NCBI GenBank assembly: GCA_020723805.1
Contig: DYID01000001.1
Span: forward strand, 142,811-206,810
From: Anaerolinea sp.
GTDB lineage: Bacteria; Chloroflexota; Anaerolineae; Anaerolineales; Villigracilaceae
Direction: 5' to 3'
DNA: 64,000 nt
Shown: piece by piece, positions 25,886 to 63,838 of the stretch
Numbering within the stretch: position 1 is the stretch's first letter
How the letters are laid out: the number at the start of each line of letters is the position of its first letter
Made by a program: the position numbers and the translations under genes
Notes under the pieces: model-generated
The model's database searches: none
Seen by the model: the letters and a program-made list of their open reading frames with translations, nothing else
What the model was told of the DNA's origin: nothing

Positions 25886-25887
25886 TT

Positions 25888-41558: not shown

Positions 41559-42628
41559 TTTTCCTCGGAGAGGGGGTTGAAACCGCGTCCCAACACTTCC
41601 TGCGCGGGTGAGACAATGACAAACGCCTGCGGGTCTTCCTTTGCCACAGCCGCCTTGAGATTATGTACTTCGGTGACGGTCAGCGCGCACATCAGAATGG
41701 AGCGTTCGGCGCCCGTGTACATGCCCTTGCCTGAGACGGCGGTGACGCCGCGCCCCAGGTCGCTGAGGATGCGTTTGGAGACCGTTTCGGCTTTGTTGGT
41801 GATAACCATCGCCAGCAGCTGTTTGCGGCGGTGACGCGGGGCAAACCAGGCACGCAAGCCTTTGGGTTTTTCCCGCCCGTTGGCGGTAAGCGGGACAGTC
41901 TCCTCGCCAAAGCGCGGCAGGATTTCGCCCGTAGCGTGGGTCATGGTGACAGTCCCGATGGCAATCAGCATCAGGAAACCATAGTAGATTGCCCCCAGCG
42001 TGAGCATCAGTTGTCCGGGAAGAGGTCCGACACTGCCGCGTTGAATGAATTCCGCCACACTGGCGGCTGGTTGGGGAAAGAGATAACTTTTTGCCAACCA
42101 GGAGGCGCCCAGGATGCCGTAAATCCACAAGTAATTGCGCCGCAGACGCCTGCCGAACGCCTCCCACATGGAAATGGGGAATTTGGGCATGAGCAGATTT
42201 TCCGCCAGGCTTTCCGCCCATTCGGGCGAGGGATGAAACGGCGGCACGAGCATGGCGGCGTAGAAATCGGTTTCCATCAGACGGATGCGGTAACTCCACA
42301 GTTCGTAGTAGCGGTAGCGCCTTGCCTCCATGAAGAGAAACCAGGTAATCAGCAGGGTATTGAGGATGATGACCCCGTGATGGACGGTCGGTTGGCTGAA
42401 GGCAATGGAAAGCGCCGCGCCGGTGGAGACCACCGCCCAGTTCGTGGTGGTATCCAACCTTTGCCGCCACACGTTGGCGCGCTGGATTTCGGCGCGGAAG
42501 AAATGTACCATGGCGGTGACAAATTCGCTGGTCTTCAGGCTGTATCCGCGATACGTCCAGACCGGCTCTTCCGGTTCCTGTTGCGCGGATGTTTTTCCCT
42601 TGGGGGTTGATTTTTTTTCTGTGGTCAT
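41555..42628 (-). CDS. DUF2270-DUF2179 membrane fusion protein
   Basis: The 357-residue protein joins a DUF2270 membrane region (about residues 25-215: TYRGYSLKTSEFVTAMVHFFRAEIQRANVWRQRLD and four hydrophobic segments) to a C-terminal domain. That C-terminal domain (about residues 270-350: LLAMVITNKAETVSKRILSDLGRGVTAVSGKGMYTG) resembles DUF2179, which usually ends YitT-like transporters. DUF2179 is thought to be a small ligand-binding or regulatory module. The gene follows the SLC13-like permease by 4 bases, so the two are co-transcribed and may cooperate. No function can be named. Confidence 0.7.
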   Translation of the reverse strand: MTTEKKSTPKGKTSAQQEPEEPVWTYRGYSLKTSEFVTAMVHFFRAEIQRANVWRQRLDTTTNWAVVSTGAALSIAFSQPTVHHGVIILNTLLITWFLFMEARRYRYYELWSYRIRLMETDFYAAMLVPPFHPSPEWAESLAENLLMPKFPISMWEAFGRRLRRNYLWIYGILGASWLAKSYLFPQPAASVAEFIQRGSVGPLPGQLMLTLGAIYYGFLMLIAIGTVTMTHATGEILPRFGEETVPLTANGREKPKGLRAWFAPRHRRKQLLAMVITNKAETVSKRILSDLGRGVTAVSGKGMYTGAERSILMCALTVTEVHNLKAAVAKEDPQAFVIVSPAQEVLGRGFNPLSEEN

Positions 42629-42632
42629 CGTT

Positions 42633-44432
42633 TTATCCTATCGGTTTGAGGAGCGGGAGAAGAACCATCAAAACCATCACGAGCAGAATCGTGAGCGGGA
42701 TGCCCACGCGGGCATAATCCTTGAACGTGTATCCGCCCGCGCCCATCACCATGACGTTGACGGAATGCCCCAGCGGAGACATGAACGCCATCGAAGAAGC
42801 CACCGCTACTGCCAGCGCCACGCTCCTCGGCTCCATCCCGACCTGTTGGGCGGTGGCAATCGCAATCGGCGCAATGACCGTCACCGCCGCCGCCCCGTTG
42901 ACGATTTGAGTCAGCGCAACGGTCAACAGAACGAACCCCGCCAGCAAGCCCAGGTGTCCCGAATTCCTGAACGCCGCGACGATGCCCTCCGCGAACATGA
43001 CCGACGCTCCTGTCTTGTTCAGCGCCACGCCAACGGGCAGCATCCCCGCCACGAGGAACAGACTGCGCCAGTCAATGGCGCGGTATGCCTGATCCATGCT
43101 CATCGCGCCGATCAAAACCATCGTCACTGCGCCGCTCAACATGATTTCCGCAATCAGGCTGGGGAAGACAACCGCCAGCGCCAGAGTCAAAAGCATGACC
43201 AAAGCCGTAGCCCAGCCGCGCAGCGTCATCCGCCCAGAGGGAGCCGACTCCGCCAGAAGGATCAAGCCGGGCTCTGTTCGCAGCAGGCTCAGGCTTTTTT
43301 CCGTCCCTTGCAGGAGGAGCCCGTCGCCGAATTCCAGCGGCAAATCTGCCAGCCGCGTGCGGATGGGACGTCCGCGCCGCCAGATCGCCAGCACCTTCGC
43401 GCCGAATTTCTGCTCGAAGCGCATCTCCCGCAGGGTCTGCGAAGCCAGGGGCGAGCGCGGCGCAATGGCGGCTTCGATGAGTTTCACATCGGGCGTGGCG
43501 AGGTAATCCTGCTGCCATTCGCCGGAGGGCAGAACCTCCAGCATATCCTTCAGCGACTCGGGCAGGCTGTCTTCGGGGCGCGCCACAATCAGCAGAATGT
43601 CGCCGCCTTTCAGCGCGGTGCCCGCCTCGATGGGCAGGGTGGAACGTCCGCGCTGAATCGCAATCACATTGAGATTGTATTTTTCACGCAAACCGCTCTT
43701 CGCCAGAGTCACACCGTCGAGGCAGCCGCCCTTGCATACCATTGCCCGCACCAGCCGTTCCGAAAGTTGATAGGCATTCAGCAAATCAGCGGATTCCTGC
43801 CCCTCTTCGTGCCGCTCGGCGGGAGATTGCGCGGGCAGCAGCTTCCGCCCCCAAAACACCATGTAGAGGATTCCCGCGAGCGTGAGGGGAACGCCGATGG
43901 GCGCAAACTCGGTCAGGGTGAAGCCGGGCAGGTTGGCGTCCCTCAGCAAACCGCTCACCACGATGTTTGTTGTTGTCAGCAGGGTTGCCATGCCGCCCAA
44001 GATCGTGCCGAATGCCAGCGGCATCAGCAGTTTCGACGAGGAGACCTTCGAGCGCCGCGCCACCCCCGAAATCGAAGGGAAGAGCAAAGACGCCGCGGCA
44101 ATGTTGTTCATGAACAACGACAACGTCCCCGCCGCCGCCATCACGCCGAAAATCAGTCTCCGCTCGCCCGCACCGAACAAGCGGATGATGGACGCCCCCA
44201 TCCGCTCGGTCATTCCCGAACGGCGCAATCCCTCCGCCAGCACAAACGCCGACATCATGATGATGACCGCCTGCCGGCTGAACCCCGAAAAGGCTTCCTG
44301 CGGAGTCAAAATTCCGCTCAAGCCCAACGCCAGCATTAGCATCAGCGCAACAATGTCCGCTCGCAAAACGTTCCCCAGAAGCAGCAACGCGGCAACGCCG
44401 AGGAACAACAATGTGAGACTCAGTTGTGACAT
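42633..44432 (-). CDS. SLC13-family permease with TrkA-C domains
   Basis: The 599-residue protein has two sets of membrane helices around a central cytoplasmic region (about residues 200-375) that contains two TrkA-C/RCK-C-like domains. This is the usual layout of large bacterial SLC13/DASS permeases such as putative sulfate, citrate or dicarboxylate carriers. Marks include SAFVLAEGLRRSGMTERMG in the first half and LFLVAGMLPVGVALNKTGASVMFAE in the second. ATG 44432 is the likely start. Regulation by a nucleotide through the RCK domains is plausible. The DUF2270 gene follows directly. Confidence 0.85.
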   Translation of the reverse strand: MSQLSLTLLFLGVAALLLLGNVLRADIVALMLMLALGLSGILTPQEAFSGFSRQAVIIMMSAFVLAEGLRRSGMTERMGASIIRLFGAGERRLIFGVMAAAGTLSLFMNNIAAASLLFPSISGVARRSKVSSSKLLMPLAFGTILGGMATLLTTTNIVVSGLLRDANLPGFTLTEFAPIGVPLTLAGILYMVFWGRKLLPAQSPAERHEEGQESADLLNAYQLSERLVRAMVCKGGCLDGVTLAKSGLREKYNLNVIAIQRGRSTLPIEAGTALKGGDILLIVARPEDSLPESLKDMLEVLPSGEWQQDYLATPDVKLIEAAIAPRSPLASQTLREMRFEQKFGAKVLAIWRRGRPIRTRLADLPLEFGDGLLLQGTEKSLSLLRTEPGLILLAESAPSGRMTLRGWATALVMLLTLALAVVFPSLIAEIMLSGAVTMVLIGAMSMDQAYRAIDWRSLFLVAGMLPVGVALNKTGASVMFAEGIVAAFRNSGHLGLLAGFVLLTVALTQIVNGAAAVTVIAPIAIATAQQVGMEPRSVALAVAVASSMAFMSPLGHSVNVMVMGAGGYTFKDYARVGIPLTILLVMVLMVLLPLLKPIG

Positions 44433-44461
44433 TGACAAAAAATTCGCTTTTCCTTATGGGA

Positions 44462-44656
44462 TGAAAATCCGTTACTTGTCGCCTGAAAAGACGAGATCAA
44501 TCTCGCCCTACCGCATAAGATGAGTTGCTCAAAACGACGCTTCGGGACTCACCCGAGGCTGATTCTGTTTCGAGAGGCATTCGCGGCGCTTCGAGCATCG
44601 GGGGGGGGGAAATCCCCGCCTCAGCGCATGGCAGCGGACGTTAGAGAACGTCCGCT
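44462..44656. repeat. Repeat-rich gap: MITE-like copy F and GACGTT palindrome
   Basis: At 44469-44529 lies a short TTACGCAG-family element (TTGTCGCCTGAAAAGACGAG then ATCTCG...CGCATAAGATGAG). At 44638-44656 GCGGACGTT-AGAG-AACGTCCGC forms a perfect stem, which also supplies the last codons of the Mo oxidoreductase gene. No gene was seen between 44439 and 44640. Confidence 0.65.
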
Positions 44657-47637
44657 ACGCGTTTCGGTAATTTATACGCCTCTTTCGTGGGCTTGAGAGG
44701 GCGGCTCAGCCAATACGGACGGCGCGTGCCGTCGGGGCTGAAGCGGGTTGCGGGTCTCGTCATCGCCAGCCATTGACGATAGACCTGCATGGACTTGTTC
44801 GTATCCACGAACAGGTCGCCCGCTTTTTCGCCGGGCTCGGCTTTGCTGACCTTGAACACCTTTTGCAGCCAGCAATGGACTCCGCTGATGGGGTCGGGGT
44901 GGACGGCGTGGGCGAGGTTCTGGTTCACGCCGACGTTGCTCCACCAGATACGGCTGGTGTCGGGGTCGGAGGATTCCCATGCCTTCGCGCCGTGAACGAC
45001 GCGCATGAGGAAACCGCCCTTGCCGTCTTCGTGGATTTCCACGAGGTTGGATGAACCTTTGCTCACGCCCGCGTCTTCCTGCAAGCGCCAGCGTCCCAAG
45101 TGGTGGCTGACGGCGATGATGCCGGGCTTGATCCCTTCCGTCACCCAGACCGTATCCACGAAGTAGCCGATTTCGGTCTCCACTTTGGCGAGGTCGCCCG
45201 TTTCCAGTCCGAGGCGCTGCGCGTCTTCGGGATTCATCCAAATCGGATTCTTGTGCGAGATTTCATACAGCCACTTCGCGTTTGCCGAGCGGGTGTGAAT
45301 GAGCGTGGGCAGGCGGAAGTTCGGCAGCAGAATCATCTCGCCTTTGGAGCGGTCAATTGCATCGGGGTGGACGTGACTCTTGATTGCCCAAGGGATGACG
45401 TATTGCTTTTCGCTCCAGCCCCAATCGTGAAGCGTCTGGCTGAAGAATTCGAGTTTCCTCGAGGGCGTGTCGAAGCCCGTTTTGATTTCGCCGTCTATGT
45501 TTATACCTATGGGTTGGTTGTCTTTGAAGACGGTGTCGTTAGGGGCAACTGAGTAATTGGTAATTGGTAATTGGTCGGCGGAATTACCATTTACCGCTTT
45601 ACCAATTACCTTTTCAAACGGCGCGTAGTTCTCCTTCTTCACTTCAAACACGCCATACTTGCGCATGTATTCGAGCGGGGTCAGTCCTTCCTTTGCGGCG
45701 GCTTCGGGCAGACCTGGCACGGAGTTCTCGAAAATCCAGCGGTAGTATTCCTCCACCGTGATGATTTCACCAGGGCGATACGGGCTCTCGAACCACTGAC
45801 GAATGCCGAGCGAACCGTCGGGGTCCACGCGCGCGGAAAGTTGAATCCACCACTCGTTTTCTTCCCACACTTCGCCGGGGTTGGCTTGGTAGGTGAAGTC
45901 CACTTTCATGCCCGCGCGTTCCATCGCCACGCGGCGCACGGGCTGGCGGAAGGCGATCCACTGCCCGGCGTGCGTTTCCTGACTCATCAGGTCGTGGCGT
46001 TCGGGTCCGTGTCCCATCGGCAGGACGTAATCGGCAAACCAGGCGGTCTCGTTCCAGGTGGGCGTGAGGGCGACGTAGCATTTGATTTTCGAGTTTTCGT
46101 CCTTGAGCGCCTTGAGCCACATGAAGCCGTCGGGGTTGATCCAGAGGGGGTTATAGACGCGGGTAAAGTACACGTCAATTTCGCCGCGTCCTTCTTCGAG
46201 CATGTGCGGCAAAAGCATGGACATCTCGTAATGCGCGAGCGGGTATTCGATGGGGTAGTGCAGTTCGTTCCACGTTTCGGGAGCGGGCGCACCCTTGAAC
46301 GGTTTGGGGACGAATTTGTTCCAGTTGGTCAACGAGGTTCCGCCCTTGTTACCGATGCTTCCCGTCAGGACGTTGAGGAAGAACAGACAGCGCGAGACCT
46401 GCCACCCGCCCAGGTTGCCGACGCTCGCGCTGCGCCAGACGTGCGTGGCGAGTTTGCCGTCGCAGTTGGCGACGAGGCGCGCAGTCTCCTGGATGCGTTC
46501 GATGGGGACTTCGGATTCTTCGGCGGCGCGTTCGAAGGTGTATTCGGCGTAGAGGTCTTTGAGGAGGCGATCAAACAAGTCGAAAGTCAAAAGTCGAAGG
46601 CGTTGCCCTGAGCCTGTCGAAGGGTCGGACGCGGCGCTTCGAATCTCCGCCGCTAACTGCTCACTGTTCACTGATACCTGATTACTGGCGACTGCCTGAA
46701 GTGTCTCCTTCCAGTTCACCCACTTGCGGACGAAGTCTTTGTCGTAGAGATCGTTTTGGATGAGGTGATTGGCGATGGCGAGCAGGACGGTGTTTTCACT
46801 GCCGGGGTAGGTGGGCAGCCAAACGTCGCTCATCGAGGCGGTGTTCGAGAGACGCGGGTCGAAGGTGATGAGTTTCGCGCCGTCGGTCTTGGCTTCGATG
46901 ATGCGCTGGGCGTGGGGGTTGAAGTAGTGTCCCGTTTCGAGGTGACTCGAAATGAGCAGGATGACGCGCGCGTTGGCGTAATCGGGGCTGGGACGGTCCT
47001 GTCCGCACCAGAAGTTGTAGCCCGCGCGCGAGGACGAGGAACAGACGTTGGTGTGGCTGTTGTGACCGTCCATGCCCCAAGTCTGCACGACGCGGTTGGT
47101 GTATCCGTCTTCGCCGGGGCGACCGACGTGATAGACGATTCCGTTCGGGCGGCGCAGTTTGCTCTCGCGCATTTTCTCGGCGATTTCGGTGAGGGCTTGT
47201 TCCCAAGTGATGCGCTCCCATTTGCCTTCGCCGCGTTTGCCCACTCTCTTCAACGGATAAAGAATTCTTTCGGGATCATAAACTTGATTATGTGTCGCGG
47301 GTCCCTTGGCGCAGTTGCGTCCGCGCGAGCCAGGGTGGACGGGGTTGCCTTCGAGTTTGCGAATTTCGTAGGTGTCTTTGTCCACGTAGGCGAGCAGTCC
47401 GCACGCGGCTTCGCAGTTGAAGCACACGGTTGGCACGAGGGTGTATCTCCGCGCCACTTTGCGGGGCCACTCTTTGCCGTCCCATTCGACCCAGTCGTCC
47501 CACACATCGGGAGGCGGATACTGGCTGATGCGCCCGTCGGGGTGGACGACTTCGGTCAGTTTGACGGGGGCGCGGTCCGAGGTCGAGAAGTGAGGCGGGG
47601 TGAGTCCTGCGGAGGTTTTGGGAGTAGATTGGGTCAT
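44641..47637 (-). CDS. Molybdopterin oxidoreductase (SoeA/PsrA-like)
   Basis: The 998-residue protein is a DMSO-reductase-family catalytic subunit. Cys72, Cys75, Cys79 and Cys109 bind a [4Fe-4S] cluster, followed by the bis-MGD domains (VCSSSSRAGYNFWCGQDRPSPDYANARVIL, ITFDPRLSNTASMSDVWLP) and a C-terminal dinucleotide-binding domain. No Tat signal is present, so it should face the cytoplasm, as SoeA does. With the upstream ferredoxin/NrfD fusion it forms a complex like SoeABC (sulfite to sulfate) or PsrABC. Start 47637 was chosen because the longer frame only translates repeats. Residues about 315-355 (with DPSTGSGQ) and 686-695 (DQLPITNY) are dispersed repeats read in frame, and the last residues come from a palindrome. 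Sulfite dehydrogenase is inferred from context. Confidence 0.75.
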   Translation of the reverse strand: MTQSTPKTSAGLTPPHFSTSDRAPVKLTEVVHPDGRISQYPPPDVWDDWVEWDGKEWPRKVARRYTLVPTVCFNCEAACGLLAYVDKDTYEIRKLEGNPVHPGSRGRNCAKGPATHNQVYDPERILYPLKRVGKRGEGKWERITWEQALTEIAEKMRESKLRRPNGIVYHVGRPGEDGYTNRVVQTWGMDGHNSHTNVCSSSSRAGYNFWCGQDRPSPDYANARVILLISSHLETGHYFNPHAQRIIEAKTDGAKLITFDPRLSNTASMSDVWLPTYPGSENTVLLAIANHLIQNDLYDKDFVRKWVNWKETLQAVASNQVSVNSEQLAAEIRSAASDPSTGSGQRLRLLTFDLFDRLLKDLYAEYTFERAAEESEVPIERIQETARLVANCDGKLATHVWRSASVGNLGGWQVSRCLFFLNVLTGSIGNKGGTSLTNWNKFVPKPFKGAPAPETWNELHYPIEYPLAHYEMSMLLPHMLEEGRGEIDVYFTRVYNPLWINPDGFMWLKALKDENSKIKCYVALTPTWNETAWFADYVLPMGHGPERHDLMSQETHAGQWIAFRQPVRRVAMERAGMKVDFTYQANPGEVWEENEWWIQLSARVDPDGSLGIRQWFESPYRPGEIITVEEYYRWIFENSVPGLPEAAAKEGLTPLEYMRKYGVFEVKKENYAPFEKVIGKAVNGNSADQLPITNYSVAPNDTVFKDNQPIGINIDGEIKTGFDTPSRKLEFFSQTLHDWGWSEKQYVIPWAIKSHVHPDAIDRSKGEMILLPNFRLPTLIHTRSANAKWLYEISHKNPIWMNPEDAQRLGLETGDLAKVETEIGYFVDTVWVTEGIKPGIIAVSHHLGRWRLQEDAGVSKGSSNLVEIHEDGKGGFLMRVVHGAKAWESSDPDTSRIWWSNVGVNQNLAHAVHPDPISGVHCWLQKVFKVSKAEPGEKAGDLFVDTNKSMQVYRQWLAMTRPATRFSPDGTRRPYWLSRPLKPTKEAYKLPKRVADVL

Positions 47638-47837
47638 AGGGTCTCGGTTTCGTAATGCGTGATACGTAATTCGTAATTCGTAATTCGTAATTCGTAATTC
47701 ATAATTCGTAATTGGTAATTGGTAATTGGCGAAATGCGGTGAGTGAGCGGGATAAATCCCTGCCTCAGTATGTGAAAGTCGGTTAAAACCGACTCTGCCT
47801 TCAGCCCAAAGGGCTTCCATGAACTGAGCAGGCTCGT
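47638..47837. repeat. TTCGTAA/TTGGTAA heptamer array
   Basis: From 47662 to 47729 a 7-base unit, TTCGTAA changing to TTGGTAA, is repeated about nine times. The rest of this 200-base gap holds no gene. It lies between the two co-directional oxidoreductase genes. Confidence 0.8.
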
Positions 47838-49547
47838 TCACGAATTCGGAATATACTGCGGCGCCATGACGAAGGCGTATTCATAGAAGAACAAACCAAC
47901 GGCGGCGCACAGCGCGGCGAAGGGCATGGAGGTCGGCAGGAGGAAAATCATCGCCAGCGGGAGGAGATGCGCCAGCGCGATGCCGCCCCACCAGTAATGA
48001 TTGCGGAAGCGTCCGTGCGTCATTTCGCGGTAGCCCAGCAAAGCGACTTCGGAGGCGAAGGAGTTGAACTTGCCCGAAAAGGTCAGGAGCAGATTCAGCG
48101 CAATGCTGGCGGGGAAGAGGCGGAAGAGCATATCGCTGAGCGATTCGGGGTAGGGGACGAACAGGTTGAGGACGATGAACGTTCCGCTGGCGACCATCAT
48201 GGACTGCGTGAAGAGTTGGAACGGCAAAAGCGGACTCTGCCACATGTCGCGTCCCTCTGCCTGACCGAGCAGGAAAGCGGAATAAATCACGGCGAACAGC
48301 GCGAGCGGGAACGTCAGCCACGCGGCAAACGGACGGAGGGCTGATGCCGTTTCGAGGGGCAGAATCCCAACCTGAGCCGCCCCTTCGACCAGCCACCACA
48401 GTCCCGCAATGGCGGTGAAGCCAACCAGAATGAACGCGCCGCGCGCCACCCACGACTTCCACTGCGGGCGGAACAGGATGTTGAGGAAGCGTTTGGGCTG
48501 CGAAAGGTCTTTGATGAGCAGAATCACCGTGACGAGCATGAAGACCATTGCGGTGAAGCCTGCGGTGAGGAAGGCGGTGGAGTCGAAGGCGAATAGACCG
48601 AACATCGCGCCGAGGCTGAGGAGCATGAAGAGTCCGCCCGCGATGTTTTTGGTGACGAGATAGGCGGGCAGTTCCCAATGCCAGTTGATTTTATGCTGCG
48701 CGTTGTACGCGGTCTGAACCATGTGTTCGGCGACGCGCCCGCCGATTTGGATGGGACCGTAGAGCGGGCGTCCCTGTTCGCGCGGGGTGCGGATGGGCGC
48801 GCCGCTCCGTGCTCGCCCCGTCGCTAGAGAGCGACTGCTACGCGGCTCACGACGATTACGCGTGTCATCCCCCGCGTAGCCGATGTTCTCTAACGTCGGC
48901 TGCAACACGGGCAATTCATACAACGCTGTGTTTTGCTCGGTGATTTTGTCCGCCCACATGAACGAGTCATGCGCGGGGGAGGCGGAGGGATGAAGCGCCC
49001 AGTCGTTGCCGTTGATGTAGAAGAGTTTGGGGGCGGTACCCTGCTCAGGCTTGCGAACGGTCGCTTGGGCGGTTGCCAACTTTCGGCTGATTTCCGAAGC
49101 GGGGTCGTTCAAATCTCCAGCGATGATGGCGTGTTCGGGGCAGACGACGACGCAGGCGGGTTCGAGTCCCACATCCAGGCGATGGGCGCAGAAGTGACAT
49201 TTGGCGGCGGTGTTGGTTTCAGGGTCGAGATAAATCGAGTCATAGGGGCAGGCTTGCATACAGGATTTGCATCCGATGCAAATGCTGGGGTCGAACTCGA
49301 CGATGCCATCGTCGCGCTGGTACATGGCGGTCACGGGACAGATGCGCACGCAGGGCGGATTGGCGCAGTGGTTACAGCGTGTCACCTGAAAGCGGCGGCG
49401 CACGTCGGGGTAGGAGCCCGTCTCCACGTACTTGACCCACGTGCGATACACGCCAAGCGGCACTTGATTCTCGGACTTGCACGCGGTGGAGCACGCATGA
49501 CAGCCGATGCATTTGGATTGGTCAATGAGGAAGCCGTAGTTTGGCAT
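47838..49547 (-). CDS. Ferredoxin/NrfD fusion (SoeB-SoeC-like)
   Basis: The 569-residue protein fuses two subunits that are usually separate. Residues 1-160 hold four [4Fe-4S] Cys clusters (CIGCHACSTACK, CNHCANPPCVRICP, CIGCKSCMQACP, CHFCAHR...CVVVCP), as in DmsB/SoeB. Residues from about 290 on are an NrfD/DmsC-type membrane anchor of about eight helices (WELPAYLVTKNIAGGLFML, ILFRPQWKSWVARGAFIL). It should carry electrons between the Mo subunit and the quinone pool. The linker region (about residues 214-255) contains GYAGDDTRNRREPRSSRSLATGR, which is a palindromic repeat in frame. It precedes the Mo gene on the same strand. Confidence 0.85.
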   Translation of the reverse strand: MPNYGFLIDQSKCIGCHACSTACKSENQVPLGVYRTWVKYVETGSYPDVRRRFQVTRCNHCANPPCVRICPVTAMYQRDDGIVEFDPSICIGCKSCMQACPYDSIYLDPETNTAAKCHFCAHRLDVGLEPACVVVCPEHAIIAGDLNDPASEISRKLATAQATVRKPEQGTAPKLFYINGNDWALHPSASPAHDSFMWADKITEQNTALYELPVLQPTLENIGYAGDDTRNRREPRSSRSLATGRARSGAPIRTPREQGRPLYGPIQIGGRVAEHMVQTAYNAQHKINWHWELPAYLVTKNIAGGLFMLLSLGAMFGLFAFDSTAFLTAGFTAMVFMLVTVILLIKDLSQPKRFLNILFRPQWKSWVARGAFILVGFTAIAGLWWLVEGAAQVGILPLETASALRPFAAWLTFPLALFAVIYSAFLLGQAEGRDMWQSPLLPFQLFTQSMMVASGTFIVLNLFVPYPESLSDMLFRLFPASIALNLLLTFSGKFNSFASEVALLGYREMTHGRFRNHYWWGGIALAHLLPLAMIFLLPTSMPFAALCAAVGLFFYEYAFVMAPQYIPNS

Positions 49548-49571
49548 TGGTAAGTAGTAATTGGTAATTGG

Positions 49572-50657
49572 TTATGCGGCTTGCGGAGGGGCGACCGCGT
49601 TCATGATGGCGGTGGTGAAATCAGTCGGCGTGACGCCAGGCGATTGGATGTTGAGGCGGTAGTACGCTTCTTCGATTTTGGATTTGAGCGTTTCGGGCGT
49701 GGCGGCGACGCCGCGCAGGGACTGTTCGAGCGCGCCGACCGCGAAGACGGGGAGCAGGGTGAAATCGCCAGAGATGGTCACGTCGTCAATGCGACCTTCG
49801 CGCAGGCGGGCGATGACGCGGATCAAACCGCCCTGCGCCTTGAACGCCGCTTCGACGATGTGGACATCCTGATGAATCTTCACGCCCTGCTGTTTGAGTT
49901 GACCTTTTTGATACAGCCACTCATCGGAGGTAAAGCGGGCGTCAATCTCTTTTGCCATGGCTTCCTCTTCGGCGGTCCATTCGCCCGCCACGATTTCAGC
50001 GCCCAATGCTTCGGAGACCTTCTTCAGGTACAGGTCTTTGACCATGACACGGTCAGGCGTGGAGCCGAGTTGTTCGGTCATGGTGGTCATGTAGGCTTCG
50101 AGCGACTCGAAGATTTTGTCGCGCATTTTCTCGGAGGGGACTTTCAACACCTGCGACATGGTCTTCTTGTCGAAGGTGTACATCAGACTGCCGACGAGAA
50201 TCTCGGCAATGCCCATCTGCGCCGCGCCTGTGCCGCCGATCTTCTTGCCGTTGACGTGGATGTCGTTGATGGGGCGGTAGTTGGCGTTGATGCCCAGTTC
50301 CTTGTAGGTCTGCACGATGGGGTCAATGTAGAGGGTGAAGCGTTCTTCGAGCGAGGCAGGCAAATCCTCCTTATGGAAAATCCATTGTGTGAAGAGTTGA
50401 CCGCTGTCGAGATACACCGCGCCGCCGCCGACCTCGCGGCGATAGACGGGCAGGTTGTGCGCCGCGCAGTAATCCAAATCCACTTCCTTTTGCAAATCCT
50501 GGTGATAGCCGATGGACACATACGGCGCATTCGGCGAGACGAGAATGATGGTATTGGGGGTGTCCGGTTTCATCGCGTATCCGACCGCGTGGTAAACGGT
50601 CTGCGAGCGGAGGGGCGACACGCCTTCCATGTAGAGCAAACGGATTTTCTTGGACAT
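49572..50657 (-). CDS. lplA: Lipoate-protein ligase (sLplA-like)
   Basis: The 361-residue protein has the LplA/BPL fold: SQTVYHAVGYAM, VSIGYHQDLQKEVDLDYC, the lipoyl-binding loop RREVGGGAVYLDSGQLFTQWI near residue 73, the catalytic-type lysine region NDIHVNGKKIGGTGAAQMG near residue 128, and a C-terminal accessory domain. It attaches lipoate to a specific lysine. It stands directly next to two LbpA-like lipoyl carriers, as in sHdr loci that have a dedicated lipoylation enzyme. AAAGGAG precedes ATG 50657. Upstream, the frame only reads a GTACAC-type repeat. Confidence 0.9.
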   Translation of the reverse strand: MSKKIRLLYMEGVSPLRSQTVYHAVGYAMKPDTPNTIILVSPNAPYVSIGYHQDLQKEVDLDYCAAHNLPVYRREVGGGAVYLDSGQLFTQWIFHKEDLPASLEERFTLYIDPIVQTYKELGINANYRPINDIHVNGKKIGGTGAAQMGIAEILVGSLMYTFDKKTMSQVLKVPSEKMRDKIFESLEAYMTTMTEQLGSTPDRVMVKDLYLKKVSEALGAEIVAGEWTAEEEAMAKEIDARFTSDEWLYQKGQLKQQGVKIHQDVHIVEAAFKAQGGLIRVIARLREGRIDDVTISGDFTLLPVFAVGALEQSLRGVAATPETLKSKIEEAYYRLNIQSPGVTPTDFTTAIMNAVAPPQAA

Positions 50658-50726
50658 TGGGAGACTCCTTTGGGGGTGCTGTGGGTAAAATAGGTACACA
50701 GGTATACAAGTACACACGTACACGCG

Positions 50727-51173
50727 TCAGTCAATGCAACGCAGGCAATTAACTTTCAATTCTTTGATTCTTTCCTTATATCTCTCCGCCGCTTCTTCAC
50801 CCGTGACTAAGTGACTGGATTCCGCTTCGAGATTCGTCGGTCTCACTTTGACGAACCAGCCATCTGTGTATGGCTCTTTGTTTGCCAGCAGAATATTCTT
50901 TGCAAAGCCTTCTTCATTGGTCGCTACGATCTCGCACGAGAACGGCGCGGGGAACGGTCCCACCCATTTCGCAGACTCAACCGTCGCCAACGCCTTGCCT
51001 TGCGCAACCTTCTTGCCAACATCCCGAAAACTGATCGCCGCGATTTTTCCGCAGCGCGTCTGAGCGACATCGGTCATGCCGAGCGTGGCGATCTCGCCAT
51101 CGAAGCGAATCCACACATCGCGCTCGATGTCGTAGTAGAGGTCTTCGGGGATGTCGCAGGCGTAGAAAATCAT
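50727..51173 (-). CDS. lbpA: GcvH/LbpA-like lipoyl carrier 2
   Basis: The 148-residue protein has the GcvH fold with the lipoylation lysine at residue 69 in TVESAKWVGPFPAPF; glycine-cleavage GcvH has ESVK in this place followed by a different context. The Trp-Val-Gly-Pro that follows is shared with its paralogue at 52899. No other glycine cleavage gene is nearby. In sHdr loci such proteins (LbpA) carry sulfur on the lipoyl arm. Start 51173 aligns with the paralogue (CDIPEDLYY against CNIPENLYY). It ends with an unusual Cys pair (CLRCID). Confidence 0.88.
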   Translation of the reverse strand: MIFYACDIPEDLYYDIERDVWIRFDGEIATLGMTDVAQTRCGKIAAISFRDVGKKVAQGKALATVESAKWVGPFPAPFSCEIVATNEEGFAKNILLANKEPYTDGWFVKVRPTNLEAESSHLVTGEEAAERYKERIKELKVNCLRCID

Positions 51174-51236
51174 TAGTGTGCAGTTTGCGCTCTCGAGCGT
51201 GTACCTGGCGTTCTCGAACACCAAATACGCGCGCTG

Positions 51237-51276
51237 TTGGTAATTGGTAAATGGTAATTACCAATTACCAATTACT
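51237..51276. repeat. Inverted TTGGTAA heptamer hairpin
   Basis: Two and a half TTGGTAA/ATGGTAA units are followed by the reverse complement, making a long A/T-rich stem next to the 40-residue gene. A similar inverted pair is at 57083-57121. Confidence 0.75.
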
Positions 51277-51394
51277 TACCCTTGCTCATCATCGCCACGG
51301 TGTAAACCTTGATGTTCAGAACGATGAAGCGCCAGAGTTGATAGAGTTTGAAGTTCATCCAGAACTTCTCGGCTTTGGAAAATTCCTGCTGCAT
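51272..51394 (-). CDS. 40-residue protein, unknown function
   Basis: The small frame reads MQQEFSKAEKFWMNFKLY... and ends VYTVAMMSKGK. AAGGAG lies 7 bases before the ATG, a better site than most genes here have. It is rich in aromatic and basic residues with an amphipathic or weakly hydrophobic middle (LWRFIVLNIKVYTVAMM), so it could lie along the membrane or bind a partner. It starts 40 bases after the SQR-family gene and precedes lipoyl carrier 2. No family is recognised. Confidence 0.6.
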   Translation of the reverse strand: MQQEFSKAEKFWMNFKLYQLWRFIVLNIKVYTVAMMSKGK

Positions 51395-51434
51395 ATCGGT
51401 CTCCTTGTGGGTCGAAATTAATTTCGACCTGCAA

Positions 51435-52874
51435 CTATTCAGGAATCAACGTCCAACCTGGGCGGGCTTTGAACTTCCACATGAAGGTGTGATGGAGCAG
51501 GAACTTCATCCATGCGCCGCTCAAGCCCATTTCCAGATGCGAGACGAACAGGTCTCGCCCATATTCGTTGGGGTATTTTTTGCGGTCTGGGACGACGGGA
51601 CGCATGACAATGGTCACTGCCGAGCCGTCCCACAGATTGTCGCCCATGCTGGCGATGCACGCCGCCACCATCTCGCTCATGCGCTCGCTGTGAGATGGTT
51701 CGCGCCCGTTGACCGCGTCAATGACGTTCAGCGCCACAATACGTCCAATCTCGCCGCTGACCATACCCGTGCGCGGCGGCGCGGGAGCGATGGCAACGTT
51801 GTTCTTGTTGGTGAAGGGCTTGGAGATGGGACCGGGAGGCGCGAAGGCGATTCCCGCCGCAAAGATGTTGGGGTAGTTGGGATTTTGATATTTGGCGGGC
51901 CAGGCTTCGGGGGTGTTAGCAAGTTCGGGGTAGGGCAGACCGTATTTCGCGTCCACGAGGACGAAGCCCGCAGGGTTGACCAGTTTCGAGGAGACGTCCG
52001 AACCGTCCTTCCCGATGTATTTGAACGGCTGTCCCTTGAATTGCGGGATGAGCATGGCGAAATCGAATTCGCTGACATGCTCCTCGCCCTCGTAATCCTG
52101 CCAGTAGATTTTGCCTTCCTCGACTTTGGTCACGCCTGCTCGAATCTGGTAGCGGATGCCGTGGTCGTTGAAGACAGATTTGATGAACTCGTCGCTTTTT
52201 TGCACGACACCATTGCGCTTGATCTGCACGCCGTTGACTCCGAAGTCTCCCAATTCAGGTTCGTTGGAGAGCCACAGGATGTCGGCTTTGTCGCGCAGAC
52301 CCTTTTTCACCAAATCCTTGTGGACGTTGACGATGTATTCGAACGCCGCGCCTTGGCAGGTTGCCATCGGGTGCCCCGTGCCGATGACGATTTTCACCTT
52401 CTCGCCTTTCTTCATGCGTTCGCACAGCGCAAGGTAGGCGTCGCGGGTTTTGATGGCATGAGGGTAGGAGCAAATGGAATGGGTGAAACCGTTTTCGGGG
52501 CCGAGACCGGGCGTGCCGGCGAAGTTCAGCAAAGGACCGGGCGCGATGACCATGTAGTCGTAATCGAGCCGCGTTTCCTTGCCCGTCGCCACTTCATCTG
52601 CCAGCACGTACTGGTCGCCCGCGTCGGGGTGAATCTCTTTCACCGCCGCGTGGACGAACTTGACGTTCTTGCGGTCATACACGGGTTTGAGTTTGAAGAC
52701 GGTCTTTTCGGGCTTCATGTGACCGACTCCCACCCAAACCCACGACGGCAAGTAACTGAACACATCGCGGTTGCTGACTACCGTGACTTCATGCTTCCTG
52801 CCGATTTTGCTTCCCAGGTACAACGCGGTGGTGTGACCTGCGAAGCCCGCGCCGATAATGAGTATTTTTGCCAT
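51435..52874 (-). CDS. SQR-family FAD oxidoreductase (sulfide:quinone reductase-like)
   Basis: The 479-residue protein has a Rossmann FAD motif (ILIIGAGFAGHTTALYLG) and the SQR/FCC layout. Cysteines at 135 (HSICSYPHA), 173 (GHPMATCQGAAFEY) and near 412 (MVAACIASMG) occupy the places where SQRs hold their redox-active and persulfide-bearing cysteines. An FAD-binding APPGPISKPFTNKNNVAIAPAPPRTG stretch and a C-terminal amphipathic tail also fit. It would oxidise sulfide to polysulfide or persulfide at the membrane and reduce quinone. It is embedded between two lipoyl-carrier genes. Sulfide is the likely substrate but related SQR-like enzymes differ. Confidence 0.82.
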   Translation of the reverse strand: MAKILIIGAGFAGHTTALYLGSKIGRKHEVTVVSNRDVFSYLPSWVWVGVGHMKPEKTVFKLKPVYDRKNVKFVHAAVKEIHPDAGDQYVLADEVATGKETRLDYDYMVIAPGPLLNFAGTPGLGPENGFTHSICSYPHAIKTRDAYLALCERMKKGEKVKIVIGTGHPMATCQGAAFEYIVNVHKDLVKKGLRDKADILWLSNEPELGDFGVNGVQIKRNGVVQKSDEFIKSVFNDHGIRYQIRAGVTKVEEGKIYWQDYEGEEHVSEFDFAMLIPQFKGQPFKYIGKDGSDVSSKLVNPAGFVLVDAKYGLPYPELANTPEAWPAKYQNPNYPNIFAAGIAFAPPGPISKPFTNKNNVAIAPAPPRTGMVSGEIGRIVALNVIDAVNGREPSHSERMSEMVAACIASMGDNLWDGSAVTIVMRPVVPDRKKYPNEYGRDLFVSHLEMGLSGAWMKFLLHHTFMWKFKARPGWTLIPE

Positions 52875-52898
52875 TTCTGCCTCCTTTGGGAGTTGTAA

Positions 52899-53336
52899 TT
52901 ACTCGAAGTTGAGATTCTGCTCTTCCATAAACTTTCGATACGCCTCCACCGCCGCTTCGCCCGTGACGAGGGAGGCGGATTCGCCCGCCCAGTCTGCAGG
53001 CTTGAGTTTGACGAACCAGCCTTCGCCGTAGGGGTCGCTGTTGATGAGGGACGGCTTCGCCTTCGCCGCTTCGTTCACTTCGACGATTTCTCCCGTGATG
53101 GGCGACGTGACGGGACCCACCCACTTGCCGCTTTCCAAAGTTCCAGCGCTCTTACCCTTCTGCACCGTGCGCCCCGCTTCCTTCGGCGTGACGTTGACGA
53201 TGCCCTTCGCCAGGTTCTGCGCCACGTCGGTGATTCCAATTTTCACCGTGCCGTCGTCCTGCGGCAGCGCCCAGGCGTGTTTCTCCACCCAGTAGTAGAG
53301 ATTTTCAGGAATATTACATCCGCGAACTGTTGCCAT
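52899..53336 (-). CDS. lbpA: GcvH/LbpA-like lipoyl carrier 1
   Basis: The 145-residue protein is a GcvH-fold carrier with its lipoylation lysine at residue 71 in LESGKWVGPVTSPITG. The N-terminus ATVRGCNIPENLYYWVEKHAWA aligns with the paralogue at 50727. There are no gcvT, gcvP or lpd genes near. Together with the ligase, it fits the sulfur-carrier role of LbpA in sHdr-type sulfur oxidation. It lies 24 bases ahead of the SQR gene, in the same direction. Confidence 0.9.
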   Translation of the reverse strand: MATVRGCNIPENLYYWVEKHAWALPQDDGTVKIGITDVAQNLAKGIVNVTPKEAGRTVQKGKSAGTLESGKWVGPVTSPITGEIVEVNEAAKAKPSLINSDPYGEGWFVKLKPADWAGESASLVTGEAAVEAYRKFMEEQNLNFE

Positions 53337-53357: not shown

Positions 53358-53489
53358 CGTTGGTCGAGTAGCCGCGTTCTTGTTCTTTGCGGCGTATCGA
53401 GACCAACGCTTTCAGGTAAACGAAATATTTCTTGAAACTGGTGGTCTCGATATGACACTCGCTGCCGCTCGTGTCTACTCGACCACCGA
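53358..53489. repeat. Two inverted GTTGGTCGAGTAG / GTATCGAGACCA repeats
   Basis: GTTGGTCGAGTAG...GTATCGAGACCAAC (53360-53408) and GGTGGTCTCGATA...CTACTCGACCACC (about 53441-53488) are two copies of one palindromic family in opposite orientation. They fill the gap between carrier 1 and the small zinc protein; the right copy overlaps the latter's last codons. Confidence 0.75.
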
Positions 53490-53765
53490 GCCTTGATTGT
53501 GTTCACCTTGCAAATGATATAAAAGCAGATCGAACACGACCAGCCGAATCTCGTACTCATATTCTGACACAAAATTCGGGTCGCGGCGCGCCTTTTTTGT
53601 GACCTGTTCGTAACTCGCGCCGCACACGGGACAGGTGATCACGTAAAACGTGTGCTTGGTAAATTCGTCCACGCGCACGCCCAGCGTATCGCCGTGTTTC
53701 TCCGCCAGGTGGTTGTGGACTTCGGAACGCTTACCGCTAAAGTCGCAATAGGGACATTTCCACAT
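53475..53765 (-). CDS. Small C2H2/Cys4-type zinc-binding protein
   Basis: The 96-residue protein has a C2H2-like finger (CPYCDFSGKRSEVHNHLAEKH, residues 4-24) and a second Cys pair (CPVCGASYEQV, near residue 45). The C-terminal half is helical and acidic. Its last residues overlap a dispersed repeat. No family is recognised. It lies in the sHdr-like locus between the membrane FeS oxidoreductase and lipoyl carrier 1 and could be a regulator or an assembly factor. That is context only. Confidence 0.6.
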   Translation of the reverse strand: MWKCPYCDFSGKRSEVHNHLAEKHGDTLGVRVDEFTKHTFYVITCPVCGASYEQVTKKARRDPNFVSEYEYEIRLVVFDLLLYHLQGEHNQGSVVE

Positions 53766-53826: not shown

Positions 53827-55908
53827 CTAGCCGACTATTTGACTAACTTCTTCCACCCCAACCGCTTCCGCCACCAACTGAATGATGTCGCGGACTTCGA
53901 TCTTGCCTTCGTTGCCTGTGGTCTTGACCGCGTCGGAGTACATGATCATGTCTTTGGGGCAGGTGACGATGAACAACTGCTTCTTGTCGCTGGGATGGCT
54001 CTGGAACGTGGACAAAGCCTCCTTGATGCGGTTCTCGGCGGGACGTTCGCCCGGCGCGACCTTCCCCATCCAAATCTGCCCGCCGCCCGCGCCGCAGCAG
54101 AACGAGTTCTCGCAGTTGCGCGGCATTTCGTGGAATTCCACGCCGAGCAGTTCGAGCAACTTGCGCGGAGCGGTGAATCCGCCGTTGTAACGTCCGAGAT
54201 AGCAGGGGTCGTGGAAGGTGACTTTGTAGTGCGAGAGTTTGTTCTTGATCGTGAGTTTGCCTTCTTCAAAGAGTTTGAGCAAAGTCACGGTGTAGTGCTT
54301 GACTTCAAACTTCCCGCCAAATTGCGGATACTCATTTTTGAGCGTGTTGAACGAGTGCGGGTCGGTGGTGACGATGCGCTGGAACTGCGCCTTGCCAAAC
54401 GCCGCCATGTTCTGCTCGACGAGTTGCTCGAACAGACCTTCTTCTCCCACGCGGCGCACATCGTTGCCCGCGTTGGATTCGTTCTGGTAGAGGATGCCGA
54501 AGTCCAAGCCTGCCTGATGGAAGATGCGCGCGACCATTTTCGTGTTCGGGATGACGCGCTCGTCGAACGAAGCGGTGTCACCGACGAACCATAGATATTC
54601 GACGGGTTCTTCGCTCGCGTTCTTGACGGGGAACTCCATCTCCTTCGCCCAGCGTCCGCGCAGACGTTTGCCCTTGCCCATCCAGTTGCCGTTCGTGGCG
54701 AGCGATTGCAGCGCGGTCTGCACGCCGCTGTCAATCTCGAAGCCGTCAATCAACATGCGGCGGCGGATGTCCACGATGTCTGCCATCGGTTCATTGCCGA
54801 CAGGACACACGCGGACACAGGCGTAACACGTTGTGCAGGACCAAACCGCCTCGGGGGAGATAACAGTCTCAGTAAGCGGAGCCTGCAGCAGGTCGGGGTG
54901 AGAACCGAAGGTCGCTTCCTTGAGAAGATAACGCTTGTTCACCTCCAATGCCGAAGGGGAGAGCGGTCGCCCGTAAAAATTCGCAGGGCAGACATCCTGA
55001 CAGCGATTGCATTGCACGCAGGCGTAAGCGTCCAGGATGCGCTTCCAGGCGAGATCGGTGATGACTTTCGCGCCAGGGTCGTACTTGCGCCCGTCAATGA
55101 CTTTGAGTGGAATCGCGGGGTCGAGCTGACCGCGCGGATTTTGTTTTGCCAAACCGAGATTGACGGGCGCCATGAAGAAGTGTGTGTGCTTGGAGCGCGA
55201 GAGGTAGGGGATGATGAACATCACCCAGCCGAGGCTCACCCACCACGCAACGTGAACGCCGACTTCGGACGCGCCGAAGAGGGAGTTGAGGAAACTGGCA
55301 AACGGCATGAACGGGTCGGCGCCTTCGGTCAGGCGGAAGGCTTGACTGAGCACATGCGCGGTGACGTGCATGATGACGAACACGCCGACGATGAGCGAAT
55401 CTCTTGCCTGCCCGCCCGCCTTGACTTTGGGATTCAACAGTACGTTCTCGCGGTAGGTGAGCGCCTTGTCTTTGACGATGAAGCGGCGCACGAGAAAGAC
55501 CGTGATGGCGATGAGCAGGAATACGCTCATTACATCAGAGATAAGGTTGTAGGCGTTGATGAGGGGAACGGTCCATGCGGGAGGCGCGATGTGTTTGCCG
55601 CTGTAGGTGAGGTCGAAATTGGGGATGAGCCCTTCCATCACATCGAAGAGATTGACGAAGGCATAGGTGATGAGACCGAAGAACAATCCCAAGTGAACCG
55701 CGCTCAACGCTTTGCGCGCTTTGAAGATGGTGCGCTGGAACAAAACAGTTATCGCGGCTTTGACGAGACTGCCAGGGATGTTCTTCAACTCAGGCGCGGG
55801 GCGTCCCTTGCGGATGGTGTCAATGATGGTCTTGAAGCCGTGAATCGTGAACCCCGCCGAGACCAGCGCGAGAAGGATGAAGAGGATTTTTTCGATAGGT
55901 GTGAGCAA
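53827..55908 (-). CDS. ETF:menaquinone oxidoreductase-like membrane FeS protein (EMO-like)
   Basis: The 693-residue protein fuses a NarI-like region of about six helices (residues 5-270, with histidines suited to bind heme b) to two [4Fe-4S] motifs (CVQCNRCQDVCP, CTTCYACVRVCP) and an HdrD-like CCG region. It resembles the ETF:(methyl)menaquinone oxidoreductases found next to etfBA. The first CCG copy lacks all cysteines (LWFVGDTASF, ILYQNESNAG, VTTDPHSF). In the second, the last Cys is replaced by Asp (HDPCYLG, SFCCGAGGG, VTCPKD). TTG 55908 with GGAGG upstream is the likely start; the longer frame reads through a heptamer array. It probably passes electrons from Etf to menaquinone. Confidence 0.85.
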   Translation of the reverse strand: MLTPIEKILFILLALVSAGFTIHGFKTIIDTIRKGRPAPELKNIPGSLVKAAITVLFQRTIFKARKALSAVHLGLFFGLITYAFVNLFDVMEGLIPNFDLTYSGKHIAPPAWTVPLINAYNLISDVMSVFLLIAITVFLVRRFIVKDKALTYRENVLLNPKVKAGGQARDSLIVGVFVIMHVTAHVLSQAFRLTEGADPFMPFASFLNSLFGASEVGVHVAWWVSLGWVMFIIPYLSRSKHTHFFMAPVNLGLAKQNPRGQLDPAIPLKVIDGRKYDPGAKVITDLAWKRILDAYACVQCNRCQDVCPANFYGRPLSPSALEVNKRYLLKEATFGSHPDLLQAPLTETVISPEAVWSCTTCYACVRVCPVGNEPMADIVDIRRRMLIDGFEIDSGVQTALQSLATNGNWMGKGKRLRGRWAKEMEFPVKNASEEPVEYLWFVGDTASFDERVIPNTKMVARIFHQAGLDFGILYQNESNAGNDVRRVGEEGLFEQLVEQNMAAFGKAQFQRIVTTDPHSFNTLKNEYPQFGGKFEVKHYTVTLLKLFEEGKLTIKNKLSHYKVTFHDPCYLGRYNGGFTAPRKLLELLGVEFHEMPRNCENSFCCGAGGGQIWMGKVAPGERPAENRIKEALSTFQSHPSDKKQLFIVTCPKDMIMYSDAVKTTGNEGKIEVRDIIQLVAEAVGVEEVSQIVG

Positions 55909-55914
55909 GGAGCC

Positions 55915-56116
55915 CTCCCGAAGATGGTAATTGGAGATTGGTAATTGGTAATTAGAGATTGGCGATACGCGATGGTATTGGTTATCGCTGGTCAACCATC
56001 CACGAATGTGACCACGAATGCGCGAATGAGTTGCGCAAATTCGGGTATTCGTGAATTATTCGTGGACGGTTTTTCTAAACAATCTCCAATTACTATTTAC
56101 CACTTACCAATTACAG
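55915..56116. repeat. Heptamer arrays and GAATGCGCGAATG-type repeat
   Basis: TTGGTAA heptamers at 55925-55956 and 56091-56115 surround a CACGAATG/CGCGAATG-type dispersed repeat (about 55998-56073). The right array overlaps the end of the EtfA gene. Confidence 0.65.
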
Positions 56117-57058: not shown

Positions 57059-57121
57059 GTTTATCTCCGTTTGCGGGAATTTGTAATTGGTAACTGGTAA
57101 TTACCAATTACCAATCACGAA

Positions 57122-59253: not shown

Positions 59254-59273
59254 GAAGGATGGTCTCCTGTTGT

Positions 59274-59545
59274 TGGTAATTGGTAATTAGTAATTGGGGT
59301 ACTGTTTACCAATTTGCTTTTCTCTTTACCGCTTACTGAGCGGGGCTGCCCTAAAGGGTGCTTCGCGAAAGCCGCCTGCTCAGTTCGTAGAAATCCTGCG
59401 GATTACGCGCCGAGTCGGATTTATCCGACTTTCATGTATTGAGGACGGGATTCATCCCCGCCGAATCAACATCAATCAAAATCGCAATCTCTCCGCAACT
59501 CTCTATCCATCAGAATTACCATTTACCATTTACCAATTACAAATT
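59274..59545. repeat. Repeat-filled gap before the HdrB3-like gene
   Basis: TTGGTAA heptamers occur at 59274-59297 and, inverted, at 59513-59545. Between them lie mixed short repeats. No gene is seen in this 283-base gap. Confidence 0.65.
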
Positions 59546-60307: not shown

Positions 60308-60333
60308 GTCAATTACCAATCACCAATTACCAA

Positions 60334-63675: not shown

Positions 63676-63838
63676 GGCTTCTCCAATCATTTTGTGCGTA
63701 GATGTCATCGTCGGCGTTAGAGAACGCCTTCTACGCAGGATCAAACCGATAAAACGGGATCAGGTCAAAGGTCAAGGATGAAGCGTTTCTTTCGTCTTTC
63801 TTCTTTCATCCTTCACAATTCATCCTTCATCCTTTTGC

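Follow-up and report, generated by a model that had tools for sequence, protein, structure and literature searches.

On the minus strand of the 64,000-nucleotide stretch analysed here, called the window below (Anaerolinea sp., Chloroflexota; assembly GCA_020723805.1, contig DYID01000001.1, positions 142,811 to 206,810), lies a block of genes for sulfur relay, lipoate-binding and quinone-linked redox proteins, which is probably a Chloroflexota type II sHdr operon for the cytoplasmic oxidation of sulfane sulfur, with a proposed flow to sulfate. The core of this cluster is already known; its new part consists of a molybdenum (Mo) enzyme from a clade other than that of SoeA, and of an inserted gene for a sulfide:quinone oxidoreductase (SQR) accompanied by a microprotein. 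From TusA to the Mo subunit the single-strand block spans ~21.6 kb, and not the 19 kb given in an earlier reading of the window (the original prediction), since TusA, DsrE2, a STAS protein, DsrE3 and sHdrC1 extend it beyond the window on the same contig. In order of transcription these five genes come first, followed by those listed here; the names of the TusA, Etf, sHdr and DsrE subunits were taken from Pfam matches, gene order and similarity, TusA being named from its own translation and its match to relatives (G, f and L numbers denote genomes, families and loci).

63839-64000, minus strand: sHdrC1, 3' part (the rest of the gene, then DsrE3, STAS, DsrE2 and TusA, past the window edge)
62455-63744, minus strand: sHdrB1 (similarity)
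61470-62321, minus strand: methyltransferase, a variable accessory (present in G112; not seen in the G216, G018, G072, G028 and G088 clusters)
60334-61380, minus strand: sHdrA (similarity, gene order)
59537-60319, minus strand: sHdrH / Hyp (by position; no Pfam or NCBIfam match)
57973-59253, minus strand: sHdrB3, fused C2-B2 (gene order, similarity)
57122-57877, minus strand: EtfB (match to a hidden Markov model, HMM; gene order)
56111-57058, minus strand: EtfA (HMM match, gene order)
53827-55995, minus strand: membrane HdrD-like iron–sulfur (Fe-S) protein with CCG domain (HMM matches), candidate Etf:menaquinone oxidoreductase (EMO)
53475-53765, minus strand: small Zn-finger-like protein, recurrent in clusters (Pfam matches below cut-off)
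52899-53336, minus strand: LbpA1, GcvH-like lipoate-binding protein (GCV_H family match)
51435-52874, minus strand: SQR family flavoprotein with Cys135, Cys173 and Cys406 (HMM match and alignment)
51272-51394, minus strand: 40-residue microprotein accompanying the SQR clade, between SQR and LbpA2
50727-51173, minus strand: LbpA2, GcvH-like lipoate-binding protein (GCV_H family match; reading frame open to 51224)
49572-50657, minus strand: lipoate-protein ligase (LplA), catalytic and C-terminal domain, sLpl(AB)-like (HMM matches; frame open to 50723)
47838-49547, minus strand: fused 4Fe-4S (SoeB-like) and NrfD (SoeC-like) subunit, 569 residues (HMM matches)
44641-47637, minus strand: catalytic subunit of the Mo-bis(pyranopterin guanine dinucleotide) (Mo-bisPGD) type, 998 residues, no twin-arginine translocation (Tat) signal, SoeA-like by analogy (HMM match; frame open to 47841)
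42633-44438, minus strand: DASS/CitMHS-type anion transporter (adjoins the cluster in G112 too; not seen in the G018, G072, G088, G055 and G216 regions)
41555-42628, minus strand: DUF2270/DUF2179 membrane protein (3' of the Mo gene also in G112, G018, G072, G088, G055 and G216)

All six genes that the original prediction had placed between 44641 and 53336 lie there on the minus strand, with coding-like GC3 (G+C content at third codon positions), and HMM matches agree with the set it had named: SQR, two LbpA-like carriers, ligase, Mo oxidoreductase and Fe-S/NrfD partner. Three of its starts had to be corrected, and the 40-residue gene at 51272-51394 had been overlooked. The Mo subunit has its conserved start at ATG 47637 and not at GTG 47841, relatives beginning with M-T-K or similar, and 47637-47841, ahead of it, is an array of 7-nucleotide repeats; LplA starts at ~50657 and LbpA2 at ~51173, both inside longer open reading frames. 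Repeats of the same period, GTAATTG/C, occur in several intergenic gaps of the operon (47647-47754, 49510-49578, 51237-51275, 55922-55976, 57064-57129, 59273-59304 and 62384-62422) and are found once within the open frame of the Mo gene (45550-45581), where the surrounding DNA matches many further contigs of the genome. The membrane HdrD-like protein at 53827-55995 is what we take to be the EMO of the cluster.

The genes shdrC1-B1-A-H-B3 and etfAB stand in one cluster (H by position), and type II sHdr is defined by shdrC1B1AHB3 and etfAB within one syntenic cluster (PMC11582611; this and the other papers are cited from excerpts). On this gene set the locus is identified as a type II sHdr cluster, predicted to oxidise sulfane sulfur to sulfite; an sHdr system with two LbpA-like carriers and a linked ligase, as had been proposed for it, is indeed present. 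The grouping of all these parts in one block had been called unusual, but blocks of this kind are on record, with soeABC-mogA-rhd-tusA-dsrE-hdr in A. caldus (PMC6335251) and hdr-etf-lbpA in T. roseum (PMC6776052). Hdr-like genes have also been reported in metagenome-assembled genomes of Chloroflexaceae (PMC13384644), and for a group in Actinobacteria and Firmicutes a linkage of EtfBA with two or three LbpA genes has been described (eLife 2018, PMC6067878). As a separate observation, a plasmid of Acidithiobacillus ferrooxidans (L126) carries an sHdrB1 homolog (52.7%) near GcvH-like, hemerythrin and globin genes, with no further sHdr gene annotated in 25 kb.

A search for sHdrA (E <= 1e-70) in 301 genomes of the phylum gave 19 carriers, among which G184 (41% identity) is doubtful; the surroundings were viewed in longer stretches for 16 of the 18 clear ones, the window included, and over only 2 kb in G220. 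The order TusA-DsrE2-DsrE3-C1-B1-A-H-B3-EtfB-EtfA-EMO-Zn-finger-LbpA1-LbpA2-LplA recurs in six other genomes of the window family f1, namely G112, G018, G028 and G088 as well as G072, where the ligases are divergent, and G216, where it is distributed over contigs; members of five further families (f54, f23, f16, f51 and f31) have it complete, truncated or in altered order. An additional LbpA is present in f54; TusA and C1 lie downstream in f51 (G135), and DsrE2 does so in f31 (G243), where LplA was not found in the cluster; in other families the cluster is cut at contig ends. Since most of the gene order recurs in relatives, the block is not a product of chance. Two relatives show peculiarities of their own: G216 (L062, L238) has two EtfB copies on two contigs, 98% and 89% identical to that of the window, so that part of its cluster may be duplicated, and in G072 (L067 15709-20000, L068 1-449) the interval from LbpA2 to the Mo genes also contains LipS1/LipS2, ligase genes and a further gene of LbpA type, which looks like the insertion of a second lipoylation cassette.

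Both carriers are GcvH-like proteins with a lipoyl lysine (in LbpA1 presumably that of the ESGKWVGP motif), are encoded together with sHdr and are distinct from the GcvH of the genome; that they might be ordinary H proteins of glycine cleavage was rejected, since the genome has its own gcvH elsewhere, beside a GcvP-like gene (named by eye). The ligase, with its catalytic and C-terminal domains and its linkage to lbpA, has the features of sLpl(AB). Compared with type I loci, identities are 50-57% for LbpA1, 36-44% for LbpA2 and 28-34% for the ligase, except for two type I loci whose first carrier matches LbpA1 at 37-39%.

The SQR-family enzyme that had been predicted at the locus is there, as judged from its match to the FAD/pyridine-nucleotide fold and from its three catalytic cysteines (Cys135, Cys173, Cys406), which are conserved in 43 of 43 aligned SQR proteins. 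The cysteines were aligned with those of the A. ferrooxidans enzyme, which we take to be numbered C128, C160 and C356; loss of the third was considered and rejected, the alignment placing it at C406. The window SQR is possibly of type IV. Directly 3' of the SQR gene, in 42 of 43 loci from several phyla, an open reading frame of 28-54 residues carries the motif RFxx[LI][NS]xK (window 51272-51394; L012-L023, L127-L129 and L240-L265, including Thiodictyon, Marivivens and Sulfurovum plasmids), the single locus without it being that of the Acidithiobacillus SQR, used as outside reference. The motif, which was drawn up once the sequences had been viewed, is matched by 29 of 20000 random stretches of equal length; none of the four microproteins tested has a Pfam match, and a limited look at the literature found no published description.

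The distribution of this SQR is sparse. At E <= 1e-100, SQR was found in 38 of 150 family genomes; among the 30 loci inspected, with flanks of up to 1.5 kb (fragment L024 and 8 of the 38 genomes being outside this count), it lies between LbpA1 and LbpA2 in two, the window and G425 from another genus (L240), and the flanks of the other 28 contain no cluster gene. Moreover, it is present in 2 of 18 sampled genomes of the window's own genus, the otherwise complete cluster of G112 is without it, and LbpA1 and LbpA2 are adjacent with no SQR between them in the 14 clusters of relatives that show both lbpA genes, as well as in G216 and G055. SQR is thus a rare addition and not a constant part of the cluster: the original prediction was right as to the enzyme and wrong in so far as it treated it as a standard component. 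Between the window and G216, of the same genus, SQR is 84% identical, compared to 95-99% for the sHdr proteins and ~90% for the Mo protein, and the lower value for SQR hints that it was acquired or exchanged separately. The strongest alternative at this locus is, accordingly, that SQR serves detoxification, came into the operon by accident and delivers nothing to sHdr. It is a serious contender, to which we nevertheless give somewhat less than even credence: the order LbpA1-SQR-microprotein-LbpA2 is shared with G425, by which the idea that it is found in the window alone was rejected, and of the genomes in the first family sample, 4 of the 7 with sHdrA have SQR, as against 0 of the 10 without sHdrA.

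The Mo enzyme had been described as a cytoplasm-facing oxidoreductase, and this part of the description holds, both for the export signal, which was not found, and for a linkage to sulfur-relay genes that is seen repeatedly. A search of the first 60 residues found no RRxF-type (Tat-like) motif in 20 of the 23 members of the Mo clade; in the three that match, it is RRYFL just before the Fe-S site, as seen in T. roseum and presumably in two near relatives. Given the lack of a Tat motif, the catalytic domain should therefore be cytoplasmic; the hydrophobic segments of the fusion protein begin at residue 301, and an Fe-S domain fused to the N-terminus of NrfD fits a cytoplasm-facing anchor. A search of 301 phylum genomes (E <= 1e-120) found the Mo clade protein in 48, namely in 15 of the 18 clear sHdrA-positive genomes versus 33 of the 283 others (Fisher p ~8e-11, uncorrected for relatedness; G184 was not scored sHdr-positive, and G055, which has the EMO-to-LplA part and in which sHdrA was not found, was scored negative). 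In 10 of the 15 genomes with both genes, from four families, the Mo gene stands beside the cluster or beside a half of it on the same contig, at varied positions: just downstream of the LbpA-LplA part in all 7 sampled Mo-gene genomes of f1 (in G072 with intervening genes), upstream of TusA in G174 (f54) and, at roughly 4 kb, in G061 and G246 (f23), and, together with the Fe-S/NrfD gene, divergent from TusA in G243 (f31). Because the linkage repeats in different arrangements, a functional tie between the Mo enzyme and sHdr can be argued.

A Mo relative on Rhodococcus pRHL3 adjoins DsrE and TusA genes, near MBL-fold (metallo-beta-lactamase) hydrolases read as possible persulfide dioxygenases, and that of the haloarchaeon Halomicrococcus adjoins genes for a rhodanese, a TauE-type sulfite exporter and a molybdenum cofactor guanylyltransferase; the relative in G232 adjoins rhodanese-TusA-DsrE2. 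Other neighbours of Mo genes were recorded: in Natrinema halophilum a dihydrolipoyl dehydrogenase gene is near them (plasmid L211, 9320-10750) and, as in Rhodococcus, a Mrp/NBP35 gene is directly 3'; outside sHdr clusters, a metal-sensitive regulator adjoins them in T. roseum (L119; the plasmid record is of Thermomicrobiota in NCBI terms), with a similar one in G126 (by eye), and LysR-like regulators are near them in G118, G166 and G041 (by eye; loci among L234, L226, L227 and L237).

From this gene context our best guess is that the Mo enzyme acts as a sulfite:quinone oxidoreductase; linkage to sHdr in four families favours such a cytoplasmic role by analogy with SoeABC, and not by membership of its clade. 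A different reading, that it is a cytoplasmic reductase of polysulfide, thiosulfate or another sulfur oxyanion and that the cluster is there for redox balancing or the reduction of sulfur and not for its complete oxidation, draws on its similarities: the best HMM matches are reductases of PhsA/DmsA type, the PDB entry that matches best, 2vpw, was deposited under the name thiosulfate reductase, and the row next to the clade in the tree is a Tat-bearing Azoarcus protein (99%; 85% in the reduced tree) whose own best HMM match is PhsA. In comparison with the NCBIfam models of named reductases (PhsA, TtrA and ArrA, no separate PsrA model being listed), however, the window protein scores far below the equivalog cut-offs (206.7 vs 694, 113.1 vs 1750 and 99.6 vs 1600, respectively), and on the HMM results its identification as PhsA, TtrA, ArrA, DmsA or formate dehydrogenase (FDH) was rejected. 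SoeA falls below them likewise, Acidithiobacillus SoeA reaching 206.4 bits with the PhsA model, so that these models cannot separate SoeA from the window clade. Tat motifs are present in the named reductases of the set and not in the window clade, which is moreover linked to type II sHdr, to the Rhodococcus MBL-fold proteins and to the TauE exporter; a reductase is on balance unlikely.

The original prediction had called the enzyme SoeABC-like, and named beforehand the phylogenetic placement of its Mo subunit as a check. SoeA was represented by loci from a scan of genome contigs with sHdrB1, in which 551 stretches were confirmed, the best 80 of them, with titles almost all from Proteobacteria, kept, and 30 of these annotated; a Mo gene and an Fe-S gene lie upstream of TusA in 8 of these 30 type I clusters, and are taken as SoeABC because the arrangement matches that of A. 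caldus (PMC6335251). In a tree of 36 rows, the 21 rows of the window clade (Chloroflexota, T. roseum, R. jostii RHA1, Halomicrococcus and Natrinema) form one group and 7 SoeA rows another, each with 100% SH-aLRT support; the f54 Mo protein is nearly the same as that of the T. roseum plasmid. Both this tree and a reduced one were built without A. vinosum and A. aeolicus SoeA, one Thioalkalivibrio locus and the near-duplicates G216 and G182, the reduced one also without NapA, FDH, TtrA and G029 (long branches); SoeA locus L218 (E. mobilis) and 12 of 30 Mo loci are absent from both, and long branches make the deeper order unsure. The Mo subunit lies outside the SoeA clade, a result close to the one that had been named in advance as counting against the proposal, and a sister relation is neither shown nor rejected. 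That the enzyme is nevertheless a true SoeABC, orthologous to that of Proteobacteria, is very unlikely, in spite of the same subunit types, the lack of Tat, the same sHdr partnership, the near-equal PhsA scores and an AU (approximately unbiased) test by which a joint clade with SoeA is not rejected (p = 0.117 in the 36-row tree, 0.208 in the reduced one): identity to type I-linked SoeA is 23-30% over 239-364 residues, no better than to PhsA (26%), the two groups are separate with a Tat-bearing enzyme nearest to the window clade, the Fe-S and NrfD subunits are fused at the window and separate in SoeABC loci, and type I-linked SoeA is present at 69-100% identity in 8 of 8 named sHdr proteobacterial genomes searched, compared to a single match, at 33% identity, in 201 phylum genomes (E <= 1e-60). 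It has been reported that not all Thioalkalivibrio soeA sequences group together (PMC6382920), and the published SoeA label may itself be mixed, which would favour the ortholog; SoeC is listed only from Proteobacteria, Clostridia and Aquificae in the excerpt of PMC8076601, and no paper with both SoeA and Chloroflexus as whole words was found in the literature.

Gene content, order, conservation, catalytic cysteines, clade and lack of a Tat signal are observed, and from them a route from sulfide to sulfate can be reasonably predicted, provided that sulfur enters the cytoplasm, that the genes are co-expressed and that electrons flow in the direction given here. SQR would convert sulfide to persulfide or polysulfide with quinone as acceptor, and TusA, DsrE2 and DsrE3 would relay the sulfane sulfur; LbpA1 and LbpA2, charged by the linked ligase, would present it on their lipoyl groups to sHdr, which would release sulfite. 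Electrons would pass through EtfBA to the membrane EMO-like protein and on to menaquinone, and the Mo-bisPGD subunit, on its fused Fe-S/NrfD anchor, would oxidise sulfite to sulfate facing the cytoplasm, again with quinone as acceptor. Of the near-complete route that had been proposed the genes thus stand, and the assignment of its last enzyme to SoeABC does not.

Several observations weigh against this picture. Mo and sHdr genes are on different contigs in 5 of the 15 genomes with both (G126, G182, G190, G220 and G231), and G028 (f1) has sHdr without the Mo gene. Among 14 Mo-gene regions inspected, 10 contain no query gene except that for Fe-S/NrfD; G243 is one of these, with TusA just beyond the region, as is G204, with DsrE-like and TusA-like genes by eye, and in the remaining 8 a sulfur link was not seen, nor do the Mo copies of T. 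roseum and of the Natrinema plasmid have a TusA or DsrE neighbour. No activity-tested member was met among the proteins of the Mo clade, whose role is a predicted one, and since the genome encodes two PF00174 (SUOX/YedY-type) proteins (G000:C41:4383-4856 and C20:48433-48906), the Mo enzyme need not be its sole sulfite oxidiser; AprA was not found in a genome search at a cut-off passed by 0 of 14 control genomes. LipS1/LipS2, reported in 74.3% of sHdr-containing bacteria (PMC10332631) and present in the clusters of G072 and G231, were not found in the window cluster or the stretch upstream, nor was LipS2 in a genome search run with no positive control. Finally, the sulfur import step has no assigned component in the pathway.

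Elsewhere in the window, several MttB-like (trimethylamine methyltransferase) proteins and a corrinoid protein are encoded at 21045-28139 (by eye, from translated starts).

Taken together, these data allow a broader proposal, which is offered tentatively and which we hold to be possible rather than probable: that Chloroflexota, some Actinobacteria and haloarchaea have in common a second cytoplasmic sulfite:quinone oxidoreductase, of separate evolutionary origin and with a fused Fe-S/NrfD subunit, which takes the place of SoeABC at the last step of type II sHdr sulfur oxidation; that in one SQR clade the microprotein is a partner of the enzyme and may assist it at the membrane or at the quinone site; and that in this genome the pair, placed between the two LbpA carriers, wires sulfide oxidation directly to lipoate loading. 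The removal of sulfite is the little-known end of many sHdr pathways and, if the proposal were true, surveys based on SoeA would overlook sulfur oxidisers of Chloroflexota, haloarchaea and Actinobacteria that form sulfate. A last enzyme from a family other than the usual one there merits a biochemical test; the operon, being compact, offers definite genes to assay, and the microprotein linked to SQR a new accessory factor that can be put to the test.

Among known systems, the closest in core genes, EtfAB, TusA/DsrE and LbpA are Sulfobacillus hdr cluster II and Thermomicrobium roseum trd_0160-0142 (PMC11582611, PMC4378227, PMC6776052, PMC6067878). In the former, EtfAB is joined by a longer HdrC-like gene, whose membrane protein has two CCG domains and six transmembrane helices (PMC4378227) and is resembled by the membrane HdrD-like protein of the window, with five hydrophobic segments and a CCG match; the T. 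roseum cluster of hdrABC, etfAB, tusA, dsrE and three lbpA genes was upregulated by a mean of 45-fold during persistence (PMC6776052). Unlike these type II examples, the window has a Mo enzyme and SQR attached to the block, the Mo homolog of T. roseum being on a plasmid with no adjoining sHdr gene. With the A. ferrooxidans type I SQR the window enzyme shares all three catalytic cysteines, and it differs in being longer, in belonging to a separate clade and in having the microprotein downstream. PsrABC, PhsABC and TtrABC resemble the Mo enzyme in subunit architecture and in HMM and PDB similarity, whereas the window clade lacks Tat, scores far below the equivalog cut-offs and has an oxidative gene neighbourhood. 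SoeABC beside type I sHdr (A. caldus; A. marinus L134, Sulfuriferula L156) likewise combines a Mo subunit without Tat, an Fe-S subunit and an NrfD-type anchor, linked to sulfur-relay and sHdr genes; the window enzyme is set apart from it by its separate clade, an identity of about a quarter, the fusion of Fe-S and NrfD, and the surroundings of the Mo site, which read HTNVCSS in the window protein and HGGFCSV in SoeA.

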